Origin: Janthinobacterium sp. 344
GTDB taxonomy: Bacteria > Pseudomonadota > Gammaproteobacteria > Burkholderiales > Burkholderiaceae_D
Direction: 5' to 3'
Length of the DNA: 64,000 nucleotides
NCBI RefSeq assembly: GCF_900112025.1
Contig: NZ_FOKL01000002.1
Coordinates: 1-64,000, forward strand
Part shown: positions 2,870 through 63,107 of the stretch, one piece after another
Numbering within the stretch: the first letter of the stretch is position 1
Layout of the letters: each line of letters begins with the position of its first letter
Notes under the pieces: model-generated
The model's input: the letters and a program-made list of their open reading frames with translations, nothing else
Told to the model about the DNA's origin: nothing
Database searches by the model: none
Made by a program: the position numbers and the translations under genes

Positions 2870-3085
2870 TTTTGGTGCCCGCGCTCATGTCCATGAGCGC
2901 AGTTAAACGGGAAACACGATGCCGCGATCGCGGCGAACGTGTGCTGCCCCCGCAACGGTAAGCAAGTGTCGCCCCTGCCTACAGGAAGCGGACGACAAGC
3001 TATCTCTGACAACCACTGTGCTTGCAAGCATCGAGCATGGGAAGGTGGGATAGCCGTACTTGCCAGCCCGGATACCGGCCAGGAC
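2870..3085 (+). ncRNA. Cobalamin (B12) riboswitch
   Basis: Characteristic conserved blocks appear in the right order: GTTAAACGGGAAACACGATGCC, the B12-box-like GCTGCCCCCGCAACGGTAAGC, CCACTGTG, ATGGGAAGGTGGGATAG, then GCCAGCCCGGATACCGGCC. These define the AdoCbl aptamer, which represses uptake and synthesis genes when coenzyme B12 is abundant. It precedes btuB by about 140 nt. That linker holds several small inverted repeats, including ATGGCC-CAT-GGCCAT and complementary GTGGAA/TTCCAC segments, and could be the expression platform. I cannot tell whether it acts on transcription or translation. Confidence 0.93.
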
Positions 3086-3223
3086 AGGTGGAAGTGTGCG
3101 AACGGGGATGTTCGCGATCCGAATGGCCCATGGCCATCTTCGATCGTCATCTTCAGTTCCACTTCTGTTCAATCTGGCCTACGGGGACGTCGGCTGGTTG
3201 CATATTACTTACTGAAAATTATC

Positions 3224-5092: not shown

Positions 5093-5112
5093 GCAGCTAG
5101 TAATGATGTAAG

Positions 5113-5145
5113 CTGCGGGCGATGGCATGCCGCCATCGCCCGCAG
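5113..5145 (+). terminator. Perfect 14-bp intercistronic hairpin between btuB and btuC
   Basis: CTGCGGGCGATGGC (5113-5126) pairs perfectly with its complement at 5132-5145 around a 5-nt loop. A smaller TGCAG/CTGCA hairpin follows at 5147-5158, and a T-run lies at 5166-5170. The T-run does not directly abut the large stem, so it may be a partial terminator or an mRNA-stabilising or processing hairpin setting btuB above btuCD expression. Confidence 0.55.
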
Positions 5146-5180
5146 ATGCAGTTCTGCAGTCCCCGTTTTTAAGGCAGTAC

Positions 5181-6206: not shown

Positions 6207-6213
6207 AACAACC

Positions 6214-6987: not shown

Positions 6988-7628
6988 GCGAGAACAAAGC
7001 CGCCGACGCGGACACCGCAGCGAATATCGCAGCGATCAACGAACGCCACCGCGTGCGCATGGAGAGAAAAAAGGCCATCATCGATGCGGCCATCGCCAAG
7101 GCCGACAAGGAAATCGGCATCATCATCGTCAACACGGGCAATGGCAAGGGCAAGAGTTCGAGCGGCTTCGGCATGGCCATCCGCGCCATGGGCCACGGCA
7201 TGAAAGTGGGCGTGGTGCAGTTCATCAAGGGCGCCATGTCGACGGGCGAAGAGAAATTCCTGCGCCGCTTCCCCGACGAAATCAGTTTTCATGCGATGGG
7301 CGAAGGCTATACCTGGGAAACGCAGAACCGCGAGCGCGACATCGAAAAAGCCGAGCTGGCGTGGGAACAGGCCAAGGCCTTCCTGGCCGATCCCAGCTAC
7401 GGCCTGGTGCTGTTCGACGAACTCAATATCGCCCTCAAATACAAATACCTCGACGTGCACAAGGTCATCGCCGACCTGCTGGAACGCCCGCACATGCAGC
7501 ACGTGGTCATCACGGGCCGTGGCGCGCCCGACGAATTGATCGCCATCGCCGACACCGTCACCGAGATGGCCGTCGTCAAGCATGCGTATGCGGCCGGCAT
7601 CGGCGCGCAGCTCGGCACCGAGTGGTGA
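6984..7628 (+). CDS. cobO: Cob(I)yrinic acid a,c-diamide adenosyltransferase (CobA/CobO/BtuR type)
   Basis: This enzyme transfers the adenosyl group from ATP to cob(I)alamin or corrinoid precursors, producing the coenzyme form. The 214-residue protein has the family's atypical P-loop GNGKGKSSSGFG around residue 50, then VGVVQFIKG and the acidic VLFDELNIAL segment. Its start overlaps the btuD stop (ATGA). It would make the AdoCbl needed both by B12 enzymes and by the riboswitch upstream. Confidence 0.93.
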   Translation: MSENKAADADTAANIAAINERHRVRMERKKAIIDAAIAKADKEIGIIIVNTGNGKGKSSSGFGMAIRAMGHGMKVGVVQFIKGAMSTGEEKFLRRFPDEISFHAMGEGYTWETQNRERDIEKAELAWEQAKAFLADPSYGLVLFDELNIALKYKYLDVHKVIADLLERPHMQHVVITGRGAPDELIAIADTVTEMAVVKHAYAAGIGAQLGTEW

Positions 7629-7635
7629 CAGCGCC

Positions 7636-8202
7636 ATGACGCGCACCCTGGTCTTCGGCGGCGCCCGTTCCGGCAAGAGCGCCTACGCGGAACAACTGGC
7701 CCGCGAGTCCGGCAAGGAAGTGGTCTACCTCGCCACCGCGCAGGCGGGCGACGGCGAGATGGCCACGCGCATCACGCATCACCGGGCCCGGCGCCCGGCC
7801 GAGTGGAGCACACTGGAAGAGCCGCTGCGCCTGGGCGACGCCATCCTGCGGGAAGCCAGGTCCGGCCGGCTGCTGCTGGTGGACTGCCTGACCCTGTGGC
7901 TGACGAATTTGATGTTTTCCAGCGGCGAGACGTATCCGGACGTGGGCGACATCGCCCTGCCCGAACTGTTTCACAGCGAGCGCGCGCACCTGCTGTACGC
8001 GCTGGCCGAAATCGGCGACACCGGCTGCGACCTTGTCCTGGTGTCGAACGAAGTGGGCATGGGCATCGTGCCGTATGGCGCCATCTCGCGCTGCTTCATC
8101 GACGAAGCGGGACGCCTGAACCAGGCCGTGGCGGCCCTGTGCGACAAGGCCGTTTTCGTGGCCGCCGGCCTGCCCCTGTACCTGAAGGGCGGCCCATGCT
8201 GA
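7636..8202 (+). CDS. cobU: Adenosylcobinamide kinase / adenosylcobinamide-phosphate guanylyltransferase
   Basis: CobU phosphorylates adenosylcobinamide and then transfers GMP, giving the CobS substrate. The start at ATG 7636 gives 188 residues beginning [18 protein letters not shown], where GGARSGKS is the P-loop; the in-frame upstream ATG at 7582 lies inside cobO and is rejected. The motif [12 protein letters not shown] and the later [11 protein letters not shown] are typical of CobU/CobP. It overlaps the next gene by 7 nt. Confidence 0.93.
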
Positions 8203-9149
8203 GCGGCCTGTCGCTGCCCACGCTGGCGGCGCTCATGACGGCCGGCGTGCTGCTCGACATGCTGCTGGGCGAGACGCGCCGCTGGCATCCGCTGGTGGGT
8301 TTTGGCCGCCTCGCCAGCGCGTTCGAGCGCCTGCTGAACCGGGGCCGTGGGCGTTTCCTGCGCGGCGCGCTGGCGTGGATGCTGGCCGTGCTGCCGATCA
8401 GCTATGCCGCCTGGTGGCTGTGCGGCCTGGCCGGCGCGGCCCTGCACGTCTTCCTGCTGTATCTGTGCCTCGGTTTGCGCAGCCTGCGCGACCACAACCA
8501 GCCGATCGCCGAAGCCCTGGCCATCGATGATCTGGACAACGCGCGCCTGCTGACGGCGCGCATCGTCAGCCGCGACACGGCCAACGCCGACGCGGCCAGC
8601 CTGGCCAAGGCCAGCACCGAATCCCTGCTGGAAAACGGCAACGACGCCGTCTTCGGCACCCTGTTCTGGTTTGCCGTGGCGGGCGGCCCCGGCGCCGTGC
8701 TGTTCCGCCTGGCCAATACGCTCGACGCCATGTGGGGCTACCGCACCGCGCGCTACGACTGGTTCGGCTGCTGCGCCGCGCGCATCGACGACGTATTGAA
8801 CTACCTGCCGGCGCGCCTGACGGCCCTGTCGTATGTCTTGCTGGGCAAGAGCATGGCGGATAAACAACGCGCCTGGCGGTGCTGGCGCAGTCAGGCGCCC
8901 CACTGGGGCAGCCCGAACGCCGGTCCCGTGATGGCCAGCGGCGCCGGCGCGCTGGGCCTGGCCCTGGGTGGCGACGCCGTCTACGACGGTGAGCTGGAAC
9001 AGCGTCCGCCGCTGGGCAGCGGGCGTCCGGCCGAAGCGCGCGACATCGACCGCGCCTGGCGCCTGGTGGCCGAAACGGCCGTGTTGTGGCTGATCTGGAT
9101 GGCGCTGCTGGCAGGCCTGTTTTATCTGCGGGAGACCTATCTTGCTTGA
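8196..9149 (+). CDS. cbiB: Adenosylcobinamide-phosphate synthase (CbiB/CobD type)
   Basis: CbiB attaches aminopropanol-phosphate to adenosylcobyric acid, forming adenosylcobinamide phosphate, in the inner membrane. The product from ATG 8196 is 317 residues with several hydrophobic helices. The N-terminal [18 protein letters not shown] matches the family's LDxxxGxPxxxxHPVxxxG pattern, and [20 protein letters not shown] is the conserved central region. The start overlaps cobU by 7 nt and the end overlaps cobD. Naming follows Salmonella; Pseudomonas calls this gene cobD. Confidence 0.92.
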
Positions 9150-10128
9150 ACATGGCGGCAACCTGCGCGACGCGGCGCGCGAATATGGCCGGCCCATCGC
9201 CGACTGGATCGACCTGTCGACGGGCATCAACCCGCACTGGTACCCAGCGCCAGCACCGGACGCCAACGCCTGGCACCGGCTGCCGGAGGCCGATCCCGCG
9301 CTGGCCGCTGCCGCCTGCGCCTACTACCACGCGCCAGCCATGCTGCCCGTGGCGGGCACGCAGGCGGCCATCCAGGCCTTGCCCCGCTTGCGCGCGCCAT
9401 CGCGCGTGGTGGTGGCCGCGCCCTCGTATGCGGAACACGCGCACCACTGGGGCCAGCACGGCCACCAGTTGCGGCAAGTGCCGTATGCACAGCTGGCCGA
9501 TGCCGTCGACCACTGCGACGTGCTGGTGATCTGCAATCCGAACAATCCCACCGGGGAGCGCATCGCGCCCGAACTGCTGCTGGCGTGGGCCGGCAAGCTG
9601 GCCAGGCGCGGCGGCTGGCTGGTGGTCGATGAAGCGTTTGGCGATACGGAAGCGCACGCCAGCCTCGGCCCCCATGCCGGCCAGCCGGGCCTGGTGGTGC
9701 TGCGCTCGGTGGGAAAATTCTTCGGCCTGGCGGGCCTGCGCCTGGGCTTTGTCGCCGCCCATCACGTGCTGCTGGCACAATTGGCCGACATGCTGGGCCC
9801 CTGGACCGTCAGCGGCCCCGCACAGCAGGCAGCCCTGGCCGCACTCGCCGACACCCGCTGGCAAGTGGCCATGCGCGAACGCCTGCGCGACGAAGGCGCG
9901 CGCCTGCGGCAACTGCTGGCAATCCACGGCATCGCCAGCAGCGGCACGGCGCTGTTCCAGTGGTGGCCGGAAGCGCGCGCCGACATTTTCTGGCGCCACA
10001 TGGCGGAAGCGGGCATCTGGGTGCGCCTGTTCCGCCACGCCGCCCACGGCATCCGCCTGGGCCTGCCCCCCGACGAACCCGCCTGGCTGCGCCTGCAGCA
10101 GGCCCTCACCACATGGAAACGCACATGA
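9142..10128 (+). CDS. cobD: L-threonine-O-3-phosphate decarboxylase, PLP-dependent
   Basis: This enzyme makes (R)-1-amino-2-propanol phosphate for the preceding CbiB. The 328-residue class I/II aminotransferase-like protein starts at TTG 9142, chosen because GGAGA lies 7 nt upstream and the product begins LEHGGN as family members do. [10 protein letters not shown] is the aminotransferase core motif. The PLP lysine is expected in [17 protein letters not shown]. It overlaps cbiB by 8 nt and btuF by 4 nt. In Pseudomonas nomenclature this is cobC. Confidence 0.92.
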
Positions 10129-11036
10129 AGACCCTGAACATATCGCTGCTGCTGGCCGGACTGATCTCGCTGCAGGCGCACGCCGCCATCAGTGTGCGCG
10201 ATGACGACGGCAATCTCGTTACCCTGCAAAAGCCGGCGCAGCGCATCCTGGCGCTGGCACCGCACATCACGGAACTGCTGTTCGCGGCCGGCGGCGGCGA
10301 GAAGATCGTCGGCGCCGTCAGTTACAGCGACTATCCGGAAGCGGCAAAAAAGATTCCGCAGGTGGGCGACAACCGCCAGTACGACATGGAACGCATCATC
10401 GCCATGAAGCCGGATCTGATCGTCGTCTGGATGCATGGCAGCGCCGAGCGCCAGATCGCCATGCTGCGCCAGTTGAAGGTGCCCATCTATCACAGCGAGC
10501 CGCGCAAGCTGGCCGACATCCCCAGCGGCATCGAGCGCCTGGGGCAGCTGATGGGAACGGACACCGTCGCGAAGCCGGCCGCCGCCCAGCTGCGCGCCAA
10601 GCTGGCCAGCCTGACGGCGCAGTACGCGCAGCGCCCGACCGTGCGCGTGTTTTACCAGGTGTGGGACAAGCCCTTGTATACCCTGAGCGGCGCGAGCATC
10701 ATCAGCGACTCGATGCGCGTGTGCGGCGGGCAGAACGTCTTTGCCGCGATGAAGGTGGTGGCGCCCGTCGTCACGCCGGAGGGCGTGCTGCAGGAAGACC
10801 CGGAAGTCATTTTCGGCACCAGCGAAAAGAGCGATCCGCGCAGCGAAGGCGGCCTGGCCATGTGGCGCGCCTTCCCGTCGATGACGGCGGTGCGCCGGAA
10901 TAATCTGTTCCGCCTGAATGGCGACCTGCTGAACCGCGCCGGCCCGCGCATGATCGAGGGCACGGCCGCCATGTGCGAACAGCTGGAAGTGGCGCGCCAG
11001 CGCCGCGGCTCTCCCGCAGCCAAGGCCGGGCAATGA
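10125..11036 (+). CDS. btuF: Periplasmic cobalamin-binding protein of the B12 ABC importer
   Basis: BtuF captures B12 in the periplasm and delivers it to BtuCD. The start at ATG 10125, overlapping the cobD stop (ATGA), gives 303 residues with a signal peptide ending LQAHA. The body has the class III binding-protein fold signatures: RILALAPHITELLFAAGGGEKIVG near residue 40 and MKPDLIVVW about 65 residues later. Because it lies directly with btuCD and corrinoid genes, B12 is a better call than a siderophore. Confidence 0.9.
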   Translation: MKTLNISLLLAGLISLQAHAAISVRDDDGNLVTLQKPAQRILALAPHITELLFAAGGGEKIVGAVSYSDYPEAAKKIPQVGDNRQYDMERIIAMKPDLIVVWMHGSAERQIAMLRQLKVPIYHSEPRKLADIPSGIERLGQLMGTDTVAKPAAAQLRAKLASLTAQYAQRPTVRVFYQVWDKPLYTLSGASIISDSMRVCGGQNVFAAMKVVAPVVTPEGVLQEDPEVIFGTSEKSDPRSEGGLAMWRAFPSMTAVRRNNLFRLNGDLLNRAGPRMIEGTAAMCEQLEVARQRRGSPAAKAGQ

Positions 11037-11851
11037 GTCACGCGGCGAGTCACTACGAGCGCATCGCCTGCCTGTCGACGGAGGCGGTGGAAACCCTGTA
11101 TGCGCTGGGCGCCGAAGACCTCATCACGGGGATCTCCGGCTTCACCGTGCGGCCATCGCGCGCGCGCGCGGAAAAAACCAGGATCAGCGGCTTTTCATCC
11201 GCGAACCTGGAACGCATCCTGGCCGTGAAACCGGACCTGGTGATCGGCTTTTGCGACATGCAGGCCGATATCTGCCGCGACCTGGTCAAAGCGGGCGTCG
11301 AAGTGCACCAGTTCAACCAGCGCACGGTGGGCGGCATCCTGCGCATGATCGCCGTGCTGGCCGCCCTGGTGCAGCGCGAGGCAGAAGGCCGCGCGCTGAT
11401 CGCCAGCCTGCGCGCCGATCTCGCCGCCGCGCAGGACCGCGCCGCTGCCTGGACGCGCAAGCCGGTGGTGTATTTTGAGGAATGGAACGAACCCCTGATG
11501 AGCGGCATCGGCTGGGCGGCGGAGCTGATCGGCATCGCCGGCGGCGCCGACGCCTTCCCGGAACTGTCCATGCAGCCGGGCGCGAAGGAGCGCATCATCG
11601 CCGATCCGCACGACGTGGTGGCGCGCGCGCCCGACATCATCATCGCCAGCTGGTGCGGCAAGAAATTCCAGCCCGCGCAACTGGCGGCGCGCCCTGGCTG
11701 GGAATCGATACCGGCCGTAAAAAACCAGATGTTGTTCGAGATCAAGTCGCCCGATATCCTCTCGCCAGGCCCTGCCGCCATCACACATGGCCTGCGCCAG
11801 ATCAGCGACATCATCGCGCAATGGCAGCATCAGCAGGAGCAAGCAACATGA
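11033..11851 (+). CDS. Second BtuF-like (TroA-type) protein without a signal peptide
   Basis: The 272-residue product belongs to the same COG0614-type fold as the preceding Btu[28 protein letters not shown] at the N-terminus and [12 protein letters not shown] thereafter. Sequence beginning [15 protein letters not shown] has no hydrophobic leader, and no in-frame upstream start adds one, so the protein is predicted cytoplasmic. The start overlaps the btuF stop (ATGA) and the end overlaps cobQ (ATGA), so it is made with the corrinoid enzymes. It may bind corrinoids inside the cell, but its function is not established. Close family members are usually just called cobalamin-binding protein. Confidence 0.75.
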
Positions 11852-13311
11852 AGACGCCCTTCCCCGCCCTGATGGTACAGGGCACGACGTCCGACGCCGG
11901 CAAGAGCACCGTCGTCGCGGCCCTGTGCCGCCTGCTGAAACGGCGCGGCGTGACGGTGGCGCCGTTCAAGCCGCAAAACATGGCCTTGAATAGCGCCGTG
12001 ACGAGCGACGGCGGCGAGATCGGCCGCGCCCAGGCCCTGCAGGCGCTGGCCTGCGGCATCGCGCCGCATACGGACATGAACCCGGTGCTCCTGAAACCGT
12101 CGTCGAACACGGGTGCGCAAGTCATCATCCACGGCAAGGTGCGCGCCGAGATGGATGCGCGCGACTACCAGCACTATAAAACCGTCGCCATGGGCGCCGT
12201 GCTGGAGTCGTACGCGCGACTGCGCCAGCAGTACGATGCCGTCGTCGTCGAAGGCGCGGGCAGCCCGGCGGAAGTGAACCTGCGCGCGCGCGACATCGCC
12301 AACATGGGCTTTGCGGAAGCCGTCGACTGCCCCGTGATCCTGGTGGCCGACATCGACCGGGGCGGCGTCTTCGCGCACATCATCGGCACGCTGGCGTGTT
12401 TGTCCGACAGCGAACGGGCACGCATCATCGGCTTTGTCATCAACCGCTTCCGCGGCGATATCTCGCTGCTTCAACCGGGCATCGAGTGGCTGGAACAGCA
12501 GACGGGCAAGCCCGTGCTGGCCGTGCTGCCGTATCTGCAAGGCCTGTTCCTCGACGCGGAGGACGCCGTCGAGGCGACGCAGGCCGAACGGGGCGCCTTC
12601 AAGGTGGTGGTGCCGCAACTGCCGCGCATCAGCAACCACACGGATGTCGACGCCCTGCGCGCGCATCCCGACATCGACCTGCAATTCGTCCGGCAGGGGC
12701 AGCCGATTCCGCCTGCCGACCTGGTGATCCTGCCCGGCAGCAAGAACACGCGCGGCGACCTGGCCTGGCTGCAGCAGCAGGGCTGGCCCGCCTACCTGGC
12801 AAAACACTTGCGCTATGGCGGCAAGGTGATCGGCATCTGCGGCGGCTTCCAGATGCTGGGGCAGTCCGTGCACGATCCGCTGGGCGTGGAAGGCGCGGCG
12901 GGAGAGTCTGTCGCACTGGGCCTGCTCGACATGCACACGCAGCTGACGGCGGAAAAAACGCTGGAGCAGGTGGCGGGACACTGCGCGTTCGCCGGCGCGG
13001 ACAATGCCGCCGTGGCCGGTTATGAAATCCACATGGGCGTGTCGCATGGCGCGGCCTTGCGGCAGCCGGCCTTCGTCATCGCGGGCCGGCCGGAAGGGGC
13101 CGTGTCGCCTGACGGGCAGATTCTGGGCAGCTATCTGCACGGCCTGTTCGACACGCCCGCGGCCTGCGCGGCGCTGCTGCGCTGGGCTGGACTGGCCTCG
13201 CAGCACACGGTCGACACCAGCGCCCTGCGCGAGGCGAGCCTGGAGCGCATTGCCGATGCGGCCCTGCCATTGCTGCAGGCGCTGGAGGCGCTGGACGGCC
13301 TGGGACGCTGA
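11848..13311 (+). CDS. cobQ: Cobyric acid synthase (glutamine-hydrolysing)
   Basis: CobQ/CbiP amidates four side chains of adenosylcobyrinic a,c-diamide. The 487-residue product from ATG 11848 starts with [20 protein letters not shown], a dethiobiotin-synthetase-like P-loop domain. A glutamine amidotransferase domain with the nucleophile Cys in [11 protein letters not shown] (around residue 330) and catalytic His in SYLHGLFD follows. The start overlaps the previous gene (ATGA). No enzymes making the corrin ring or the a,c-diamide are in this window, so the substrate must come from elsewhere in the genome or from outside. Confidence 0.93.
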
Positions 13312-49872: not shown

Positions 49873-50237
49873 AATTCAAGTGAAGCAGGCCGGTAGGCCG
49901 GATTTTGTTACGGCGCCTTCCTTGCGGTCGGCGCTATGACAGTCATTCCTCTAGGCGCCAGATTACTCTGGCGCTCAAGCTTTCTACCCGCACGCTCCGC
50001 GAGCAGCATCATCGCGTGCCTATTTGAAATTGCACCAGGTGGAGGTTACCGCGTTTCACCGTAACTTAATACGCTCGTCTCTGTGGCCCTATTCCTCGCC
50101 TTATACTCCCCCGGCATACAAGTACGCCGGGTCGGCTTTCAGCGGACGGCCGTTAACCGTCACCCCGCTCTATGGAGTCCGGACCTTCCTCCCGCCAGCG
50201 CATTGCTGCGCCGGCCAGCGACTGTCTGGCCTGCTTC
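49873..50237 (-). ncRNA. rnpB: RNase P RNA component
   Basis: Ribozyme subunit that trims tRNA 5' ends. On the minus strand the conserved blocks are in order: GAAGCAGGCCAGACAGTCGC at the 5' end, GGGAGGAAGGTCCGGACTCC, GACGGTTAACGGCCGTCC, AGGGTGAAAC-like GGTGAAACGCGG, and a 3' region ACAAAATCCGGCCTACCGGCC ending near the GAAGCAGG-type closure of helix P1. About 365 nt, the normal type A size. Ends are approximate to a few bases. Confidence 0.93.
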
Positions 50238-55008: not shown

Positions 55009-55470
55009 CTAGCGCCGGCTGGCGCGCTTGAGCATGCGCATGAAAGCGCCCAGCAGGGGCAACTTTTCATACAATTCCTCGGCCACATCCCAATAGTCGC
55101 GGTGCAAGACCACCCTGCCCTGTGCATCGAAACGCACGTGCGTGGCACCCCGTATGCACTGTTCGCCGGAAACGCGGCGTTTCATGCGGAAGCGAAACTC
55201 CCAGGTGAGGAACGCTTGACTGCCCTGCCCCATGCTGTCGAGCACGATAAAACGTGGCGCATCCACCTGCACGAACATGTGTTCAAAGATGGCCAGGATG
55301 GCGGCATGGCCCCGCACCTCGTTGAACGGGTCCTTGAAGTGAGCATCCGGCGCATACACGGCGCCCAGCTGGGCCAGGCTTTCCAGGCTCAGGTGTTCAT
55401 AAAACGCCGCCAGGCGCGCCAGCGCACCCGCCATCTCCTCCGTCTGCTGCATGCTCGACTCCTGATTCAT
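55009..55470 (-). CDS. SnoaL-like / nuclear transport factor 2-fold protein
   Basis: The 153-residue product from ATG 55470, overlapping the SDR stop (ATGA), has the NTF2-like pattern: LARLAAFYEHLSLESLAQLGAVYAPDAHFKDPFNEVRGHAAI, then a beta-sheet ending VVLHRDYWD. Such small cup-shaped proteins are often isomerases, hydrolases or binding proteins. It is the last gene of the eight-gene operon starting at 61960. Confidence 0.82.
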   Translation of the reverse strand: MNQESSMQQTEEMAGALARLAAFYEHLSLESLAQLGAVYAPDAHFKDPFNEVRGHAAILAIFEHMFVQVDAPRFIVLDSMGQGSQAFLTWEFRFRMKRRVSGEQCIRGATHVRFDAQGRVVLHRDYWDVAEELYEKLPLLGAFMRMLKRASRR

Positions 55471-56234
55471 AGGCCCGTGACCTTGCGGATCAGCCAAAAA
55501 TAGGCGCGGTAGGGCAGCAGCCGCGCCAGCCGCAAGGTATTGGTAAAACGTTTGGGGAAATGGATGTGGAACTGCCCCCGCGCAATGCCATCGAGCATGG
55601 CGGCGGCCGCATCCGGCGCCGTCATCAGGGCAGGCATGGTGAAGTCATTGCCGGCCGTCAGTGGCGTGGCGACAAAACCAGGGTTGATTTGATACACATC
55701 AATGCCGCGCCGATGCAGGTCGAGATACAGCGACTCCGTCAGGTTGATCAGGGCCGCCTTGCTGGCGCCATACGCGAGCGCCTTCGGCAAGCCGCCGTAG
55801 CCGGCCACCGAGGCGACGATGCCGATGCCGCCCCGTCCCTGGCGCAGCAGCCACGGCAGCGCCACGTCCAGGCAATTGAAGATGCCGCCCACATTCAGGG
55901 CCAGCAGGCTTTGCGCCGCCTCCAGGTCGAAATCGTCGGCGCGCATGGCTTGATAACCGCCAGCCACCACCAGTATCAGGTCGATATGCCGCCATTGCTG
56001 CGCCAATTGCGCGCCCGCCGCCCGCAGCTGGGCAGGCTGGGTGATATCGAGCGGCAAGGCCAGCGCCAGCGGCTGCCCTTCGCACAATTGCTCCAGGCTG
56101 GCGCGGTGGCGGGCCGACAGGGCCACGCAGGCCCCCTGCTCCAGCAGCAAGGTGGCACAGGCGGCGCCGATGCCGCTGGAAGCGCCGATGATCCAAACGT
56201 GCTTGCCGGCCCAGTTGCTGATCTTGCCGTTCAT
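55467..56234 (-). CDS. Short-chain dehydrogenase/reductase
   Basis: The 255-residue SDR has the cofactor-binding VWIIGASSGIGAACATLLLEQGA and the catalytic YGASKAALINLTESL (Tyr-xxx-Lys) after a Ser-containing IVASVAGYGG. It is probably NAD(P)-dependent and reduces or oxidises a lipid-derived carbonyl or alcohol (inference from the operon). Both ends overlap neighbours by ATGA. Confidence 0.88.
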   Translation of the reverse strand: MNGKISNWAGKHVWIIGASSGIGAACATLLLEQGACVALSARHRASLEQLCEGQPLALALPLDITQPAQLRAAGAQLAQQWRHIDLILVVAGGYQAMRADDFDLEAAQSLLALNVGGIFNCLDVALPWLLRQGRGGIGIVASVAGYGGLPKALAYGASKAALINLTESLYLDLHRRGIDVYQINPGFVATPLTAGNDFTMPALMTAPDAAAAMLDGIARGQFHIHFPKRFTNTLRLARLLPYRAYFWLIRKVTGL

Positions 56235-56788
56235 GGGGCGGCCTGTGGACGTTTGTTGAACGACAGGGTGACGGCGCCCAGGCTGAAGCCGAACTTGCTC
56301 ATGGCGGCGCGGTTCAGCATGACCTTGTCATCCATCAGGAACATCCAGTCCTCGAAGTCGACGTGGTACACGGTGCCATCGACGGGCAAGGCCAGGACAT
56401 ATTGCCAGCGCAGCGCATTGCCCGCCACTTCGCCGATGGCTACGCCGATCACGTCGGGCGCCGTGCCGATGAAGCGCCCCGGCGCCGTCTTGCGCAAGGT
56501 CCAGACGCGGCGTTGCTTGCTGCCATCCGCATACGTGAAATCCTCGTCCAGCGTGCCCGTATCGCCCTGCCAGCTGGCCCGCATCACCACCGTGAAGCGC
56601 TTGACCACCTTGCCCGCGCGGTCCTGGAAGATGCCGTGCGCGTCAAGCGTGCCATTGAAATACTGCTGCAGATCGAGCTTGGGCTCTTCCTGCGCGTAGG
56701 TGGCCGGCGTGGGCGGCGTGGAGCAGGCGGCCAGCGCCAGCAGCATCGCTGCCAGGGCACTGCGTTTGCAAAAGGTCATGAGGCGCAT
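56231..56788 (-). CDS. DUF3833 lipoprotein
   Basis: The 185-residue product has a lipoprotein signal ending LLALAACS and the DUF3833 body (LDLQQYFNGTLDAHGIFQDRAGKVVKRFTV, later WQYVLALPVDGTVYHVDFEDWMF). Function unknown; the family recurs in light/singlet-oxygen associated lipid operons. GGAG precedes ATG 56788; ATG 56779, overlapping the MFS stop as ATGA, is also possible. Confidence 0.85.
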   Translation of the reverse strand: MRLMTFCKRSALAAMLLALAACSTPPTPATYAQEEPKLDLQQYFNGTLDAHGIFQDRAGKVVKRFTVVMRASWQGDTGTLDEDFTYADGSKQRRVWTLRKTAPGRFIGTAPDVIGVAIGEVAGNALRWQYVLALPVDGTVYHVDFEDWMFLMDDKVMLNRAAMSKFGFSLGAVTLSFNKRPQAAP

Positions 56789-58056
56789 GCGCGATTCTCC
56801 ACAGGTTGACTATATATATGTTGCAGGGGCGCCCGCCACAGCAGCAGCGCCGCCAGCAGTTTCAGGGCGCAGGGCAGCAAGGCGTAAGTGGCCGACAAGG
56901 CCGGCAAGCCACCGCCCGCTCCCGGCACATATCCTAGCCACCCCAGCAAGGGCAAGGCGATGCCGGCCGCCAAGGCCAGGCTCATCTGCACGCCCCAGTT
57001 CCACCAGCCGAAATACGCGGCCTCTTGCCTACCGGCATGGCCGGCCGCGGCGATCAGTCCCGCCAGCAGGGCCGGAGGCAAGGCCAGGTCGGCGCCCAGC
57101 GCCAGTCCTGACAATAAACAAATCGCCGCAAACCCCCAGGCACCGCCCGCATCGAGGCCATAGGCCCAGACAAACACGGACGCGGCCAGCAGCATGGCCC
57201 CGCCCCAGGCGCGCGCCTCGCCAAAGCGGCGCGCCAGCGCCACCCATGCGGGCATCGAGGCGGCCGCCGCGCAAAAATAGACGATCAGGAAAGGGCTGGC
57301 GTAATGGCCCAGGCGCAAGTAGTCACTGGCGAAGAAGAGGAACAGGGTGGCGGGGATGGCGGCCGCCACCCCATTGACGAGCAGGACGGCAAACAGCCAG
57401 CGGAAAGGACGCTGGCGCAATGGCAGGCGCCAGGTGCCGGGCGGCGGCGCGTTGTCGGCGGCGCGCATCAGCGGACGCGGCGCGCGCGCCAGCAGCAGCG
57501 CGCCCGCCGCCAGCAGGCAGGCGGCAAAGGCCAGCGACAGGCCGTCATAGCCGGACACGGACGTCAGTCCCGCCGCGACGATCACGCCCAGCAAACCGCA
57601 CCCTTCGCGCACGGCCGTCACGCGCACGCGCTGCGCCGGCGCCTGCGTCAGCGCGGCGCCCCAGCTCTGGTGGGCGATGCTGGCCAGGCCAAATGCCGCA
57701 TAGACGAGCAGCAAGGCAGCGAGAAACCAGGCCAGGGTGGCCGCCTCGGGCAAGGCCGGTGGATGAAACAGGGCGCCAAAACCCAGCAGCAGCAAAGGCA
57801 GCGACATGGCGATGAGCACCGCATACGCGCGTCCCTTGCGCGCCATCCACGCGCCCAGCGCCGGGTCGATGAAGGCGGCGGCGACCCGCGCTGCCAGCAG
57901 CACGGCGCCGATCTGCGCCAGATCGAGACGGCTGCGCTGGGCATAAAAAGGCGCCACATAGATATAGATGGGCAGCGCCAGCATGGCCAGGGGCAAGCCG
58001 AACAGGCCATAGCTGAACAAGGCGGCCAAGTTCAGCGTGCCGGCCTGCGCCTTCAT
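56776..58056 (-). CDS. MFS transporter, GPH/MelB-like
   Basis: The 426-residue protein has about 12 hydrophobic segments and a sugar:cation-symporter-like layout (ALFSYGLFGLPLAMLALPIYIYVAPFYAQ at the start, FIDPALGAWMARKGR between helices 2 and 3). In a lipid-modification operon the substrate may be a lipid or lipid precursor, but this is only inferred from context. It overlaps both neighbours (ATGA with the chalcone-isomerase-like gene). Confidence 0.82.
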   Translation of the reverse strand: MKAQAGTLNLAALFSYGLFGLPLAMLALPIYIYVAPFYAQRSRLDLAQIGAVLLAARVAAAFIDPALGAWMARKGRAYAVLIAMSLPLLLLGFGALFHPPALPEAATLAWFLAALLLVYAAFGLASIAHQSWGAALTQAPAQRVRVTAVREGCGLLGVIVAAGLTSVSGYDGLSLAFAACLLAAGALLLARAPRPLMRAADNAPPPGTWRLPLRQRPFRWLFAVLLVNGVAAAIPATLFLFFASDYLRLGHYASPFLIVYFCAAAASMPAWVALARRFGEARAWGGAMLLAASVFVWAYGLDAGGAWGFAAICLLSGLALGADLALPPALLAGLIAAAGHAGRQEAAYFGWWNWGVQMSLALAAGIALPLLGWLGYVPGAGGGLPALSATYALLPCALKLLAALLLWRAPLQHIYSQPVENRACAS

Positions 58057-58613
58057 GGCAGCGGCGCCGCATCCTGCAACAGCGCGCTGCGCAGCTTCGG
58101 CGCCGTCGACGCAGGCGAGAGCCAGATGGCGAAGAAGGCGCGCGCGAAATCGCCGTCGGGCACATCAGCCAGCGCATGGCCATCCAGGTAAAAACGTACG
58201 CCGGGCGCGATGCCGGCCCGGTAGGCGCCCGCGATGCGCTGGCCTTCCCTGACGTCCGGGAAGATGCGCTGCATCGTCTGCAACCAGGCCAGGCGCTGCG
58301 GCTCCGTGCCCACGGCCAGCTTTTGCATCTGTTCGTAGCTGGCTTCAGCGATCTTCTTGCCGTCGAGCGCGCGCGCATAGCGCAGTTCCAGCGCGAACGG
58401 CGCCGTGTCGGACGCCGCGCCCTGGTAGCCCAGCGGTCCCACCCACAATTGCGCCCGATAAATGCGCATGCCGAACCATGTGTAGTCGCCCTCGCCCGCC
58501 AGGCGCGCTTCGGGCACATCGACAGCGATAAAGGCAGGCGCGGCAGGCGCCGCCGCCCGGGCGGCGCCCAGCATGGCAAGTGAAAGCAAACACAGGGTCA
58601 GCACACGGCGCAT
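58053..58613 (-). CDS. Chalcone-isomerase-like secreted protein
   Basis: The 186-residue product starts MRRVLTLCLLSLAMLGAARAAA, a signal peptide, so it is exported. The rest (MRIYRAQLWVGP, FALELRYARALDGKKIAEAS, GVRFYLDGHALADVPD) matches the chalcone-isomerase-like fold; bacterial and plant relatives of this fold bind fatty acids. ATG 58613 was chosen for the signal peptide and the AAGGAG 5 nt upstream. A second in-frame ATG with the same ribosome-binding site sits 15 bp earlier at 58628. Confidence 0.8.
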   Translation of the reverse strand: MRRVLTLCLLSLAMLGAARAAAPAAPAFIAVDVPEARLAGEGDYTWFGMRIYRAQLWVGPLGYQGAASDTAPFALELRYARALDGKKIAEASYEQMQKLAVGTEPQRLAWLQTMQRIFPDVREGQRIAGAYRAGIAPGVRFYLDGHALADVPDGDFARAFFAIWLSPASTAPKLRSALLQDAAPLP

Positions 58614-58640
58614 GGTCACTCCTTGCATGGTCACTCCTTG
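58611..58640. repeat. Perfect 15-bp tandem duplication covering an RBS, a stop and a start codon
   Basis: CATGGTCACTCCTTG occurs twice back to back (58611-58625 and 58626-58640). Read on the minus strand each unit is CAAGGAGTGACCATG: a ribosome-binding site, the TGA that ends the upstream cfa-like gene (in the first unit), and an ATG in frame with the chalcone-isomerase-like protein. Confidence 0.9.
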
Positions 58641-59866
58641 ATCAGGGTAAATTGCATCACGTCCGTATTATGTGCCTCGAAGGCGGCCTCGCAATACGCC
58701 AGGTAAAACTCCCAGGTCAGCAGGAAGCGGCCATCGAAGCCCTGCCGTTCCAGCGCCACGCGCTGGGCCAGGAAACTGGCGCGCCACTGGCGCAAGGTTT
58801 CCGCATAGTCGAGGCCGAAGCTGAAGGCGTCCACCACGCGCAATCCTTGCGCCTCGGCGGCGCGGCGAAATTCGGCCGGCGAAGGGAGCATGCCGCCTGG
58901 AAAAATGTACTGCTGAATGAAATCCGTGCTCTTGCTGTAGCGCTCGAACAATTCATCGGCGATGACGATGGTCTGGATGCAGGCGCGGCCGCCCCGCTTC
59001 AGGTTGCGCGCCACGCAGGCGAAATAGCCGGGCCAGTAGCGTTGTCCCACGGCTTCGAACATCTCGATCGAGGCGATGGCGTCATACTGGCCGGCGCTGT
59101 CGCGGTAGTCGCACAGCTGCAGATCGGCCTGCGCTGCCAGCCCGGCAGCCTGCAGGCGCTGGCGCGCATACGCGAGTTGCTCGGTGGACAGGGTCAAACC
59201 CGTCACGTGGGCGCCGTGATCGCGCGCCGCCGTTTCCGCGAAACCGCCCCAGCCGCAGCCGATTTCCAGCACGCGCGCAGCGGGCGGCAGTTGCAGCTGG
59301 CCGGCGATGCGCGCATATTTCGCCCCTTGCGCCTGCTCCAGGCTGGCGCCCTGGGAAAACAGGGCGCTCGAATACGTCATCGACGGGTCCAGCCACAGCT
59401 GGTAAAAGGCATTGCCGATGTCGTAATGGGCGTGGATATTCTTCTTGCTGCCCGCGCGCGAATTGCGGTTGAGCAAGTGACGGGCCTTGTAGATCAAATT
59501 GCCCCACCAGTTGCCGTAGATCAGCGATTCGATCTGCGCGCGGTTGCGTATCATCAATTCGATCAAGCCCGGCAAATTGTCCGTGCGCCAGTCGCCCGCG
59601 ATAAACGTTTCCGCAAAGCCGATGTCCCCCGAGCGCAACACGGCCGCACACAGGCGCCAGTTGTGCAAGTCCAGGGTGACAGGCGTGCCCCCGTCGCCAT
59701 ACAGCAGGACGCTGCCGTCTGGCGTGCGCAGGCGCAAGGCACCGTATTGCAGCTTGTGCAGCAGGCGCAGGATCATGCGCGCCGCAGCGGGCATGTCCAG
59801 ATGCGTGTGATCGGAATAAGCGCTGGCGCGCGCCTGCAAGCCGGTCGGCAGGGAATCGGAGCTCAT
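58631..59866 (-). CDS. cfa: Cyclopropane-fatty-acyl-phospholipid synthase-like methyltransferase
   Basis: This enzyme family uses SAM to add a methylene or methyl group to unsaturated acyl chains of membrane phospholipids. From ATG 59866 it is 411 residues. NIHAHYDIGNAFYQLWLDPSMTYSSALF and the SAM motif VLEIGCGWGGFAETAA are present, followed by IEMFEAVGQRYW and FIQQYIFPGGMLPS. Relatives in similar operons make furan or methyl-branched fatty acids and not cyclopropanes, so the product should be regarded as open. Overlaps DUF1365 by ATGA. Confidence 0.9.
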   Translation of the reverse strand: MSSDSLPTGLQARASAYSDHTHLDMPAAARMILRLLHKLQYGALRLRTPDGSVLLYGDGGTPVTLDLHNWRLCAAVLRSGDIGFAETFIAGDWRTDNLPGLIELMIRNRAQIESLIYGNWWGNLIYKARHLLNRNSRAGSKKNIHAHYDIGNAFYQLWLDPSMTYSSALFSQGASLEQAQGAKYARIAGQLQLPPAARVLEIGCGWGGFAETAARDHGAHVTGLTLSTEQLAYARQRLQAAGLAAQADLQLCDYRDSAGQYDAIASIEMFEAVGQRYWPGYFACVARNLKRGGRACIQTIVIADELFERYSKSTDFIQQYIFPGGMLPSPAEFRRAAEAQGLRVVDAFSFGLDYAETLRQWRASFLAQRVALERQGFDGRFLLTWEFYLAYCEAAFEAHNTDVMQFTLIKE

Positions 59867-60660
59867 CGGGACACCTTTTCTTGTGGGGGGAGGGGTTTGC
59901 TGAAAAACGGCACGCGGCGCAGCCACAGGCGCAAGGCTTGCCAGTGGATGCGCGCCATCACGCCAAAGGTCATCAGGGGATAGCGCAGCAAGGCGTGCGC
60001 GATGACGGCGTCGCGCAGGGGCCGCGCAGTGCCGGACAGGCTCGTCTGCAGCAACGGACCGTCCAGGTCGTCGTAATCGACCTTGGCCAAGTGGCGCTCG
60101 CCGGCCTTGTCACTGTTGCGCAGGAAACGGAAGCGGTACTGCCCTTCCACCTTGCAAAACGGCGAGACGTGGAAAATCTTCTTGGCGCGCAGCTCGCTGC
60201 CATAGGCGATCGGCGCGCCGTGGTCGAGCAGGTACAGATGGCGTTCGCCAAAGGTATTGCGCACATCGCACAGCACGGCGCGCAGCGCGCCATCGGGACG
60301 GTGGCAAAACCAGAAACTCACGGGGTTGAAGACATAGCCAAACATGCGCGGCATGGTTTGCAGCCAGATTTCGCCACTGGCATCCGTCACCCCATGCTGG
60401 CGCAGCACGCCATCGATCCACTCCAGCAGCGGCGTCGCGCCATCGCCATGGTCGCTGTCGCGGAAGGACAGCGCGTTGGCGCGGTTGCGCGAGATCAGCC
60501 GGGCGGGGAAATCCTGCGCGCCCATGCTGCGCAAGGGCAGGCGCAGATAAAACATGCCGTAACTGAAGGCATGCGCGCGCGGACGCTGCCGCGCATGGCG
60601 CACCAGTCCCAGGCACAGCTGGGGCTGCGCCAGGGCCGGTTGCGCCGGATCACGCGGCAT
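59863..60660 (-). CDS. DUF1365 protein
   Basis: The 265-residue product from ATG 60660 (GGAG 8 nt upstream; overlaps the oxidoreductase by 11 nt) has the family's RHARQRPRAHAFSYGMFYLRLPL, MPRMFGYVFNPVSFWFCH and VSPFCKVEGQYRFRF motifs. DUF1365 (COG3496) is almost always next to a Cfa-like enzyme and an FAD oxidoreductase and is thought to act on acyl chains, but its reaction is unknown. Confidence 0.88.
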   Translation of the reverse strand: MPRDPAQPALAQPQLCLGLVRHARQRPRAHAFSYGMFYLRLPLRSMGAQDFPARLISRNRANALSFRDSDHGDGATPLLEWIDGVLRQHGVTDASGEIWLQTMPRMFGYVFNPVSFWFCHRPDGALRAVLCDVRNTFGERHLYLLDHGAPIAYGSELRAKKIFHVSPFCKVEGQYRFRFLRNSDKAGERHLAKVDYDDLDGPLLQTSLSGTARPLRDAVIAHALLRYPLMTFGVMARIHWQALRLWLRRVPFFSKPLPPQEKVSR

Positions 60661-61960
60661 GGCCCAGCTCCGCCGCCGCCATGCCATTGAGCACTTGTGC
60701 CACGGCCAGGCCCGACTTCAAGCCATCTTCATGGAAACCGTAACCCGTCCAGGCACCCGCGAACCACGTATGCTGCGCGCCCTGGAAACCGGCCAGGCGC
60801 GCCTGGGCGGCAATGGCCGCGCCATCGAACACGGGGTGGGCATAGGAAAACTCGTCGATGATGGACGCCGGGGCGGGCTCGTCGAGCGGATTGAGCGAGA
60901 CGATGACCGGCGTGGCGAACGGCAAGGGCTGCAACTGGTTCAGCAGATAATGCACGCACACTTGCGGCGCCTCGCCTTCCGCGGCCGGCCGGCCCTGGTA
61001 ATTCCAGGCCGACCACGCCTTGCGCCGCAGCGGCAGGCAGGACGCATCCGTATGCAGCACGGCCCGGTTCGGCTGGTAGCGCACGGCTTCGAGCACGGAG
61101 CGCTCGTCGTCGCGCAAGTCTGTCAGCAGGGCCAGCGACTGGTCGCTATGACAGGCCAGCACGACATGGTCGACATGCTCGATGCCGGCCGCCGTGTGCA
61201 GCTCGACCATGCGCGCACCGCCGTGCGGCTGGCGGCGCACGCCCAGCACGGGGCAGGCCAGGCGCTGCTGCGGAATGCCCGCCAGCAATTTCTTCACATA
61301 CTCGCGCGAGCCGCCGCGCACCGTGCGCCACTGGGGCCGGTCACTGACCTGCAGCAAGCCATGGTTGTGGCAAAAGCGGATGAAGGTGGCCAGCGGAAAA
61401 GCCAGCATCTGGCGCGCCGGGCACGACCAGATGCAGGCAGCCATCGGCAACAGATACCAGTGGCGGAATTCGTCGCCATAATTGTGCAGGTCGAGGAATT
61501 CGCCCAGCGACATGGCCGGCGCCGGCAAGCTCGCCATGGCCAGGGCGCTGGCCTGGCGGTTGAAACGCAGGATGTCGCGCAACATGCGCAGGAAGGCGGG
61601 ACGCAGCAGGTTGCTGCGCTGCGTGAACACGGTATCGAAATTGGCGCCCGCCCATTCCAGCACGCGGGCATCGGACGCGGTACCCAGCGGCATTTTCACG
61701 GAAAACGACATGTCGCTGTCGGCCGCCTCGACACCGAGTTCATCGAACAGTTGCACCAGATTCGGATAGGTGGTGTGGTTAAACACGAGAAAGCCCGTAT
61801 CGACGCCATGCGTGACGCCATCGAGCGTGACATCGACCGTATGGCTGTGGCCGCCGAAATATTCCCCTGCCTCGTACAGCGTGACGTCCTGGCCCGCCTG
61901 CGCCAGCCGATAGGCACACGACAGTCCTGCGATTCCTGCTCCGACGACGGCAATTTTCAT
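60650..61960 (-). CDS. FAD/NAD(P)-binding oxidoreductase (COG2907-like)
   Basis: The 436-residue flavoprotein begins with the Rossmann motif IAVVGAGIAGLSCAYRLAQAGQDVTLYEAGEYFGGHS. It has VDTGFLVFNHTTYPNLVQLFDELG and a C-terminal FAGAWTGYGFHEDGLKSGL, typical of amine-oxidase-like flavoenzymes (desaturase/oxidase type). It is the first gene of the operon, 2 kb of co-oriented overlapping genes following. It probably oxidises or desaturates acyl chains together with the DUF1365 and Cfa-like proteins (inference). Confidence 0.9.
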   Translation of the reverse strand: MKIAVVGAGIAGLSCAYRLAQAGQDVTLYEAGEYFGGHSHTVDVTLDGVTHGVDTGFLVFNHTTYPNLVQLFDELGVEAADSDMSFSVKMPLGTASDARVLEWAGANFDTVFTQRSNLLRPAFLRMLRDILRFNRQASALAMASLPAPAMSLGEFLDLHNYGDEFRHWYLLPMAACIWSCPARQMLAFPLATFIRFCHNHGLLQVSDRPQWRTVRGGSREYVKKLLAGIPQQRLACPVLGVRRQPHGGARMVELHTAAGIEHVDHVVLACHSDQSLALLTDLRDDERSVLEAVRYQPNRAVLHTDASCLPLRRKAWSAWNYQGRPAAEGEAPQVCVHYLLNQLQPLPFATPVIVSLNPLDEPAPASIIDEFSYAHPVFDGAAIAAQARLAGFQGAQHTWFAGAWTGYGFHEDGLKSGLAVAQVLNGMAAAELGHAA

Positions 61961-61978
61961 GAATGCACCTGTGTTAAG

Positions 61979-61993
61979 TTTGTCCTGGACAAA
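61979..61993. promoter_or_regulatory. Perfect 15-bp palindrome, candidate operator
   Basis: TTTGTCC-T-GGACAAA (7+1+7) lies roughly +7 to +21 relative to the predicted start of the lipid operon, where a bound repressor would block transcription. The divergent MerR/CarH-like protein is the obvious candidate binder. Confidence 0.6.
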
Positions 61994-62006
61994 ACGAGCC
62001 TCATGG

Positions 62007-62035
62007 ATAATCGATGAAATATTGATTTATGTCAA
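62007..62035 (-). promoter_or_regulatory. Predicted promoter of the lipid operon
   Basis: On the minus strand perfect -35 TTGACA (62030-62035), 17-bp spacer and -10 GATTAT (62007-62012). Leader to the oxidoreductase ATG is about 40 nt. Confidence 0.65.
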
Positions 62036-62095
62036 TGAGCGCCCACGGCCGTTCACAAACTTATACGTCGGCAATTTCCAATCGGATTCAGCTAT

Positions 62096-62124
62096 TTGGT
62101 ACGGGGCAGCGGAAGGCGTAAAAT
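62096..62124 (+). promoter_or_regulatory. Predicted promoter of the MerR/CarH-like regulator
   Basis: TTGGTA (62096-62101), 17-bp spacer, TAAAAT (62119-62124). It puts transcription start near 62131 and so supports translation from ATG 62166 over the upstream in-frame ATG at 62127. Confidence 0.65.
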
Positions 62125-62165
62125 GCATGCCACGTTCTTCTGCAAGCGAGCAAAGCCCCCCTGGT

Positions 62166-63107
62166 ATGGATACTGACCTGCAACCCTCTCCCGCCTTCAG
62201 CATCAGCGATGTCGAACGCGACACCGGGCTGGCCAAGGAAACCTTGCGTGTCTGGGAGCGCCGCTACGCCTTTCCCCAGCCGCAGCGCGACGCCTTTGGC
62301 GAGCGCAGCTATCCTGCCGAGCAGGTGCAAAAACTGCGCATGGTCAAGCGCTTGCTGGACCTGGGTTTTCGTCCCGGGAAAATCATGCAGCACAGCACCG
62401 CCCAGTTGCAGCAACTGGCCGGCACGGGCCCCAGCGCGCCCGGGCGGGCACCGGCGCAACTGGAGCATTACCTGGCCCTGTGCCGCGGCCACCGGATGGC
62501 GGAACTGGGCGGCGCCTTGCGCCAGGCGCTGGCGGTGCTGGGCCTGAAGGCCTTCACCATCGACGTCATCGCCCCCCTCACCGGCATGGTGGGCGAAGCG
62601 TGGGCCTGCGGCGAGCTGGCCGTGTATGAAGAACACCTGTATAGCGAAACCCTGCAGACGGTGATGCGCCATGCGATTTTTTCCATGCCGCAAGCGAGCA
62701 GCCCCAGCACCCGCACGCCGCGCATCGTCCTGAGCACCCTGCCGCAGGAGCGCCATGGCCTGGGCCTGCTGATGGCCGAGGCGCTGTGCGTGGCGGCCGG
62801 CGCGCAGTGCATGTCGCTGGGGGTGGAAACGCCGCTGACCGATATCGTCGCGGCCGCCCGCGCGCAGCGGGCCGATATCGTGGCGCTGTCGTTTTCCAGC
62901 GCCAGCAAGGAACGGCAAACGCGCGACAGCCTGCAGCAGCTGCATGCGAGCCTGGCGCCCGGCATGGAACTGTGGGCCGGCGGACGCAGCCCTGCCCTGG
63001 CGCGCCGTCCGCCGGCGTTTTTGCACGTGCTGGACTTGCGCCAGGTCGAGGAAAGCATCGCCGACTGGCGCCGCCGGCATCAGGCCGACGCCTTGCAAAC
63101 GCATTAA
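62166..63107 (+). CDS. MerR-family regulator with CarH/LitR-type cobalamin-binding domain
   Basis: The 313-residue protein has an N-terminal MerR helix-turn-helix (FSISDVERDTGLAKETLRVWERRY, residues 11-34), a four-helix region and a C-terminal B12-binding Rossmann domain (about 186-305). Two signatures of CarH-type photoreceptors are intact: W-x9-EH (Trp146, Glu156, His157) and E-x-H-x-x-G (Glu195, His197, Gly200), where His is the lower cobalt ligand. In CarH, adenosylcobalamin-bound tetramers repress in the dark and light releases them. The residue right after Trp146 is Ala, while the T. thermophilus protein has a His there. ATG 62166 was chosen from the promoter position; its ribosome-binding site is weak. 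Confidence 0.87.
   Translation: MDTDLQPSPAFSISDVERDTGLAKETLRVWERRYAFPQPQRDAFGERSYPAEQVQKLRMVKRLLDLGFRPGKIMQHSTAQLQQLAGTGPSAPGRAPAQLEHYLALCRGHRMAELGGALRQALAVLGLKAFTIDVIAPLTGMVGEAWACGELAVYEEHLYSETLQTVMRHAIFSMPQASSPSTRTPRIVLSTLPQERHGLGLLMAEALCVAAGAQCMSLGVETPLTDIVAAARAQRADIVALSFSSASKERQTRDSLQQLHASLAPGMELWAGGRSPALARRPPAFLHVLDLRQVEESIADWRRRHQADALQTH

Follow-up and report, generated by a model that had tools for sequence, protein, structure and literature searches.

Is a set of genes that resembles the furan fatty acid (FuFA) pathway placed under the control of light by a repressor that uses vitamin B12? The question is raised by positions 55009-63107 of a 64,000-nucleotide stretch of Janthinobacterium sp. 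344 (contig NZ_FOKL01000002.1, positions 1 to 64,000), called the window here, in which a CarH/LitR-type regulator gene (62166-63107, plus strand) stands divergent from eight tightly coupled genes on the minus strand (55009-61960). Furan fatty acids are membrane lipids that have been linked to protection from light damage. The answer favored here, to which we give a probability of about 0.7, is that a B12-type photoreceptor repressor acts at a defined operator to control a furan fatty acid operon, which would entail a light response, binding of adenosylcobalamin (AdoCbl), repression, a furan product and a protective role, all of them predicted from sequence.

In the dark, the AdoCbl-loaded regulator would bind a palindrome at 61979-61993, just downstream of a sigma70 promoter, and would block transcription of the operon, which reads ufaD-ufaO-ufaM-CHI (chalcone-isomerase-like)-MFS-DUF3833-SDR (short-chain dehydrogenase)-SnoaL. 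Light would break the Co-C bond and the regulator would let go of the DNA, whereupon the derepressed cell would convert membrane cis-vaccenate to methylated furan fatty acids, with UfaM methylating, UfaD desaturating and UfaO adding oxygen from O2. The furan fatty acids would then help the cell to withstand singlet oxygen.

The initial annotation had described a CarH/LitR-type MerR regulator lying back-to-back with eight named genes, and calls of open reading frames (ORFs) together with a Pfam search of the window recover all nine genes with the families named. Its statement that nearly all operon genes are coupled by ATGA overlaps holds too, as a 4-bp ATGA or GTGA overlap is possible by some start codon at six of the seven junctions; the sole exception is the ufaD/ufaO junction, where the overlap is 11 or 38 bp.

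The regulator

The regulator carries MerR_1, B12-binding_2 and B12-binding domains, all three over the Pfam cut-offs. Its start at 62166 is kept across the genus and sits behind a promoter-like site; the ORF is open from 61959, and 62127 is an alternative start. The best relative in the PDB is the CarH of Thermus thermophilus (TtCarH, 5c8d; phmmer, E 9e-29, residues 18-310), with which it shares about 34% identity, and the regulators at other Janthinobacterium loci (L115-L121) are 88-92% identical to it. The residues W131, E141, H142 and H177 are key to AdoCbl binding in CarH, H177 being the cobalt ligand (PMC11796333, which, like PMC5241685, PMC5507510, PMC7380195, PMC8156234, PMC9304148 and PMC9758184 below, is cited for the accessible part of its text). 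The regulator aligns GEAW, EEH and ERH to these positions and keeps all four contact residues, the equivalents of which are invariant in 70 of 70 rows of its clade, several rows being one gene twice.

By its domains and contact residues, the regulator is of the CarH/LitR class I type, which agrees with the B12-type assignment made at the outset, and it would be expected to bind AdoCbl and to release DNA in light. Class II LitR proteins are defined by the absence of a functional B12-binding domain, and the regulator does not belong with them, having both this domain and the contact residues. The gene located 3' of the regulator resembles ftsY, as judged by eye from its translation, and a homologue of it adjoins the regulator in many relatives.

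The operator and the promoters

The predicted operator is a 15-bp palindrome, TTTGTCCTGGACAAA, at 61979-61993, which is found in all 12 same-genus sequences compared. Written as TTTGTCCNGGACAAA, the operator is the sole match with up to two mismatches in the window, where 0.08 would be expected, and the wider pattern TTTGTCCNNGACAAA has a single perfect place in the whole 6.44-Mb genome, which is this one. The operon promoter found by the promoter scan, TTGACA-17-GATTAT (62007-62035, minus strand), is of the sigma70 type, and its TTGACA is invariant in 12 of 12 same-genus sequences. The -10 element is immediately followed by the operator, so that a repressor bound there would block initiation. 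The scan also gave a promoter-like site for the regulator, TTGGTA-17-TAAAAT (62096-62124, plus strand), which is weak on its own; the region holds four promoter-like sites against a mean of 1.9 in shuffles. When two mismatches to TTTGTCCNNGACAAA are allowed, the whole genome yields 90 strand hits compared with 125 for the reversed control. As there is no excess over this control, no second genomic target can be named, and the idea of a wider regulon was dropped.

The operator follows the regulator and not the FuFA operon. In relatives, in which a match means at most two mismatches unless stated, this was examined in the best 80 of 569 relatives from a genome contig scan, a set that may repeat, under a name, genomes of the family survey described below. 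The operator is present within 420 bp upstream of the helix-turn-helix domain in 71 of the 80 loci (56 of them with at most one mismatch), namely in 49/55 loci with divergent ufa genes and 22/25 without them; among 420-bp windows drawn at random from these loci, 52 of 3583 contain a match (20 of them at one mismatch or fewer). In many relatives the operator occurs twice at a spacing of about 62 or 63 bp, and in some a third copy lies close to the start of the regulator.

Smaller sets give the same picture. The operator is found in 20 of 20 chosen CarH-FuFA loci and in 18 of 20 further CarH loci, mostly without a nearby DUF1365 gene, among which L056 and L067 have no match and L072 and L073 have sites more than 1.6 kb from the regulator. 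Among 20 FuFA operons without an adjacent CarH gene, three loci have a match, and only that of L090 lies in the divergent region; elsewhere in the genome of L090 there are two CarH genes, a hint of control in trans. Both the CarH-FuFA loci and the FuFA loci without adjacent CarH were hand-picked for spread, from 44 linked and 70 other DUF1365 genomes, respectively, and six of the latter 20 have CarH elsewhere (G072, G166, G155, G023, G113 and G067). Of the 20 wider-class loci L226-L245, three have a match, at two mismatches, and the other 17 lack one; among the loci L197-L205, which are nearer to the clade of the window, seven of nine have a match.

The promoter and the behavior of the operator bear on a different view of the locus, in which singlet oxygen controls the operon via an extracytoplasmic function (ECF) sigma factor, as in Rhodobacter and Pseudomonas syringae, and the CarH neighbor is incidental. 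We regard this as highly improbable. ChrR, the partner of such a sigma factor, presumably falls in Cupin_7, and this model has no match in the genome in a search that was aimed at the cupin and not at the sigma factor; in a control with 14 genomes, it had matches in five and exceeded the cut-off in two. On this result of the cupin search, ECF/ChrR control was rejected, in keeping with the earlier expectation that such control does not operate here. The TTGACA element with sigma70 spacing and an operator that goes with CarH instead of the operon point the same way, against the fact that in Rhodobacter and P. syringae RpoE-ChrR acts on homologous genes (PMC5507510, PMC7380195).

The probable furan fatty acid genes

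The first three genes of the operon indicate what it would make. A DUF1365 protein (59863-60687, alternative start 60660; PF07103, E 3e-82) adjoins a desaturase-like FAD protein (60650-61960; Amino_oxidase and NAD_binding_8) and a CMAS-type S-adenosylmethionine methyltransferase (58631-59866, ORF open to 59926; CMAS, E 4e-81), all on the minus strand, the combination that marks the FuFA pathway. These UfaO-, UfaD- and UfaM-like genes, named by analogy with PMC7380195, form a FuFA set, and the operon probably makes furan fatty acids.

A cyclopropane or methyl-branched acyl chain as the product, in place of a furan, appears improbable. The best PDB matches of the methyltransferase are cyclopropane synthases, and the likeness to UfaM, UfaD and UfaO of Rhodobacter sphaeroides is one of families and gene order, not of direct sequence comparison. 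A Cys and two His residues matter for cyclopropane fatty acid (CFA) synthase. When aligned with three solved CFA synthases (the Escherichia coli-type 6bqc and two others), the methyltransferase has Ser for the Cys of YSCAY, Ala for the His of MFEHVG and Gln for the His of HTIG, and over 83 rows from the fetched loci, which may include duplicate genomes, these places hold Ser in 81 rows and Ala in two, Ala in 83 and Gln in 83. A canonical cyclopropane synthase was rejected on these replacements, and the standing together of the ufaD, ufaO and ufaM types likewise argues against another lipid.

In R. sphaeroides, cis-vaccenate is methylated by UfaM and then desaturated by UfaD, and UfaO, which carries DUF1365, introduces oxygen from O2, so that a methylated furan fatty acid results. 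These roles rest on mutants, complementation and in vitro assays, and the RSP1091-1087 operon has three further genes that are dispensable for furan synthesis (PMC7380195). Further support for a furan product comes from the UfaM of Halomonas, which gave 11-methyloctadec-12-enoate in E. coli (PMC12089945), and from three genes of R. palustris that gave 9M5-FuFA (PMC7380195), although a sharing of the above substitutions by those enzymes is not implied; in favor of another lipid, the CHI-like and SnoaL genes have no stated counterpart in the accessible part of PMC7380195. The initial annotation was right about the kinship with the furan-lipid genes of the RpoE-ChrR regulon (PMC7380195, PMC5507510). 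It called the role of DUF1365 unknown and the chemistry open between furan and methyl-branched chains, and on both points it is superseded by the demonstration that UfaO, acting after UfaM and UfaD, forms the furan ring, which makes a furan the clear expectation (PMC7380195).

A search of the PDB by sequence (limit E 1) gave no relative of the DUF1365 protein, the one match, at E 0.11, being taken as chance. A carotenoid target was rejected after a search covering the crtI family only, in which the model TIGR02734 had 12 matches below the cut-off, the UfaD-like gene itself among them, and none over it.

The accessory genes

The remaining operon genes, all on the minus strand, encode a chalcone-isomerase-like protein (58053-58634; Chalcone_3), an MFS_2 (GPH-type) transporter (56776-58056; PF13347, E 5e-44), a lipoprotein-like DUF3833 protein (56231-56788; PF12915), a short-chain dehydrogenase (55467-56234; adh_short, E 3e-40) and a SnoaL-like protein (55009-55470, ORF open to 55497; SnoaL_2, E 7e-17). 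After the operon there is a terminator-like site at 55017-55004, a kind of site that shows no excess over shuffles (nine in the region against a mean of 7.4).

The structure model of the CHI-like protein (pLDDT 92.4, from a 31-row alignment) matches, besides chalcone isomerases, two fatty-acid-binding proteins of plants, AtFAP1 and AtFAP3; AtFAP1 has the top TMq, 0.63, among the 50 matches listed. DUF3833 is modeled as a ten-strand barrel (pLDDT 95.5, 35 rows), which matches calycin-type barrels including phycobiliprotein lyase, nitrobindin and fatty-acid-binding proteins; its Cys22, located behind a signal-like helix, is invariant in the 35 rows. Both proteins may bind or carry the modified fatty acids, a shared fold in itself showing no function.

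Linkage and neighborhood

At the family level, the regulator is detected in 68 of 195 genomes (E <= 1e-20) and DUF1365 in 114. The initial annotation proposed a search of genomes for co-occurrence of the operon with CarH-like regulators, and the two are indeed linked: 44 of the 68 regulator genomes have DUF1365 within 20 kb, and in all 44 the two genes are divergent. Twelve of the 44 belong to the genus of the window, and the pair of one genome (G039) is 13.5 kb apart. This survey left out weaker second copies of the regulator (e.g., in G024, G046, G047 and G056), and most matches without a locus were left aside both here and at the class level described below. Divergent ufa genes also occur in 55 of the 80 loci, and chance neighborhood was rejected on the linkage in these two sets. 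The mobilizable plasmid pAZKH of Azoarcus sp. KH32C carries the eight genes in the order of the window together with a divergent regulator and the operator. The B12-type variant is widespread in Betaproteobacteria.

Neighbors were counted in the 76 of the 80 loci in which ORF calling gave a regulator, the family of each cluster being taken from one representative. A glutathione peroxidase cluster and a FolE2 cluster are found upstream of the regulator in 22 and 13 loci, respectively, usually between the regulator and ufaD, and a DPRP photolyase-like cluster is found downstream in 11. The genome of the window has one DPRP gene, on a different contig, with no match to the operator pattern listed near it.

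Several loci vary this arrangement. L055 (G166) keeps CarH, CHI-like, MFS, DUF3833 and SnoaL genes without ufaD-O-M, another ufa set being on a different contig, and L054 (G072) keeps CarH and an SDR gene, with a FuFA operon on another contig. In L122-L138 (Duganella, Rugamonas, Pseudoduganella and related genera), CarH is found with the ftsY-like gene and the operator, without adjacent ufa genes except in L127, and many of these loci have a gene upstream on the opposite strand that by eye is porin-like. In L062, L063, L065, L066, L142 and L158, the last two from Noviherbaspirillum, CarH stands back-to-back with the gene of a fasciclin-domain protein, to which some of these loci add a DUF378 protein. 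A recurring protein with weak similarity to FA_desaturase_2 and AurF, possibly a di-iron protein, is found near such loci (L155:10052-10933 and L083). On a Comamonas endophytica plasmid, a BLUF domain protein (L248:4369-4767) is encoded 3.2 kb from a CarH-like gene that is flanked by two chemotaxis receptor genes.

Cofactor supply

A corrinoid uptake, salvage and adenosylation cluster spans positions 1254-13311 of the window and could supply the cofactor of the regulator. CobS stands in front of a cobalamin riboswitch (2856-3097, plus strand; RF00174, 71.4 bits), which is followed by a TonB receptor, a FecCD permease, an ABC ATPase, BtuR/CobO, CobU, CbiB, an aminotransferase, a periplasmic binding protein and a CobQ/CbiA-type gene. 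BtuR/CobO (6984-7628, plus strand; PF02572, E 3e-62) is the ATP:corrinoid adenosyltransferase, which makes AdoCbl, and the only match of its model in the genome. The window also contains a class A RNase P RNA (49878-50237, minus strand).

Weighing light sensing

Control of the FuFA operon by a B12-type photoreceptor repressor is favored because of the TtCarH homology, the contact residues, the geometry of promoter and operator, the association of the operator with the regulator and its single perfect genomic place; because of the divergent linkage in genomes, loci and plasmid pAZKH; and because of the light-damage genes (photolyase-like, FolE2 and glutathione peroxidase) beside the regulators of relatives, the corrinoid genes in the window and the FuFA chemistry (PMC7380195).

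Several observations weigh against it. The operator is a palindrome, unlike the 11-bp direct repeats of the Thermus and Bacillus CarH proteins (PMC8156234), in a group in which such direct repeats show much plasticity (PMC8156234, PMC9304148). With 129.5 bits on the NCBIfam CarH equivalog NF052513, the cut-off of which is 400, the regulator is homologous to that CarH and falls outside the narrow equivalog. It has three of the four motifs of the strict SignatureFinder light signature (GxxW, EH, GxxH and GxxxP; PMC11796333), since GxxH reads QERH; this exchange of Gly for Gln is shared by most rows of the clade, most of which strict signature mining would therefore miss. Nine of the 80 loci, six of them FuFA-linked, have no operator upstream of the regulator, and in 24 of the 68 family genomes with the regulator, no DUF1365 gene lies within 20 kb of it. 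Finally, one or more of the four contact residues are missing from 13 of the 33 FuFA-labeled regulator rows obtained at the class level.

The altered GxxH motif and the residue-less rows, some of which are long or hard to align, would also suit a regulator that acts on the operon via the palindrome and is no light sensor, either because its corrinoid domain responds to redox state or to the supply of corrinoid, or because its photochemistry was lost; such rows imply that B12 sensing is dispensable somewhere in the family. This we consider unlikely, given the complete set of contact residues throughout the clade and the photolyase-like, FolE2 and glutathione peroxidase neighbors.

Evolution of the regulatory link

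At the class level, regulator hits (E <= 1e-8) occur in 81 of 368 genomes other than that of the window; 32 of these 81 have DUF1365 within 20 kb, and the 33 resulting pairs comprise 24 on the same strand, six divergent and three convergent. In a 68-row tree, 20 of the 33 FuFA-labeled rows of this wider set, including the Azoarcus plasmid row, keep all four contact residues. FuFA-labeled rows fall in more than one clade, namely that of the window and a large clade from other families, where B12-type rows have rows that lack the residues near them (e.g., L232, L233 and L241; L228 with L236, L237, L239 and L240) and several forks are weak. L207 was dropped from the tree as too short, and L218, L219 and L221 as duplicates of L243-L245. 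With 16 of its 65 inner branches drawn open and with some long rows (L242, L237, L205 and TtCarH), the tree does not settle the order of sensor losses.

Because 20 of the 33 rows keep the residues, B12 light sensing may have been the original and may be the commonest LitR/CarH control of FuFA genes in Beta- and Gammaproteobacteria, the B12-free, LOV-coupled system of Pseudomonas being derived by a swap of the sensor while the output stayed the same. The link would then be carried by two CarH clades that differ in operator, with a divergent arrangement in Betaproteobacteria and a mostly co-oriented one elsewhere. We hold this scenario tentatively, with more doubt than confidence. The regulator also varies where CarH is not adjacent: 13 of the 20 FuFA operons of this kind face a gene of one protein cluster, the scanned representative of which is TetR_N. 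A TetR-type regulator takes the place of CarH in L086 (3536-4147) and in 12 other loci of L074-L093.

Comparison with known systems

The CarH proteins of T. thermophilus and Myxococcus xanthus (class I) share with the regulator the MerR helix-turn-helix, the B12-binding helix bundle, the B12 domain and the equivalents of W131/E141/H142/H177, and the TtCarH gene is likewise divergent from its neighbors. They differ in their operators, which are direct repeats, in sequence, at the identity given above, and in their described targets, which are carotenoid genes. To our knowledge, characterized B12 photoreceptor repressors all govern such genes, the control of which is also the focus of the accessible parts of two accounts (PMC8156234, PMC9304148).

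In R. sphaeroides, the core RpoE-ChrR regulon (RSP1087-1091 and RSP2144) includes UfaD, UfaO and UfaM (PMC7380195, PMC5507510), and genes for proteins of 402, 186 and 245 amino acids parallel the MFS (426), DUF3833 (185) and SDR (255) genes in order, being matched by length, order and annotation only (PMC7380195). In P. syringae, RSP_1088 and RSP_1087 have orthologues with the annotations lipoprotein and SDR (PMC5507510, Table 2). The differences are control by an ECF sigma factor with its anti-sigma factor (PMC7380195, PMC5507510) and a ufaM that lies far from ufaD and ufaO (PMC12089945). In Vibrio cholerae, a MerR-like protein and ChrR are reported to underlie the response to blue light (PMC5241685).

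Also close are the class II LitR proteins PplR of Pseudomonas putida and PmlR of P. mendocina, which have a LOV partner and light-induced ufaM clusters, in which the LitR-family repressor stands beside genes for phrB, an SDR, an FAD oxidoreductase and ufaM; in P. putida, phrB, folE and a cryptochrome-like gene belong to the light regulon as well (PMC9758184). These proteins are without a B12-binding domain or a need for B12, the sensor in P. mendocina being a short LOV protein, and their operator is T(G/A)TACA-N12-TGTA(C/T)A (PMC9758184), whereas Janthinobacterium has TTTGTCCNGGACAAA, a full B12 domain with contact residues, other accessory genes and no photolyase in the operon. LitR forms of classes III, IV and V are found mainly in Burkholderia, Vibrio and Micrococcales (PMC9758184).

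Light control of FuFA genes by the LitR family is therefore not new as such, having been published for Pseudomonas (PMC9758184). A B12-type CarH paired with furan fatty acid genes, or its operator, was not found in the open-access literature, with a mention possible in two Journal of Bacteriology papers by Sumi et al. What appears to be new is this pairing and the operator, the output and the sensor family being known. If correct, B12 photoreceptor repressors would gain a second output, the enzymatic remodeling of membrane phospholipid, and vitamin B12, a nutrient, would be tied to readiness for photo-oxidative stress, an idea that lends itself to testing, since the prediction of the operator is exact to the base and the genome holds a single perfect copy. 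One lipid module is found beside different regulators, CarH or TetR here and an ECF sigma factor or class II LitR in the literature, which makes it a clean case for the study of regulator replacement.

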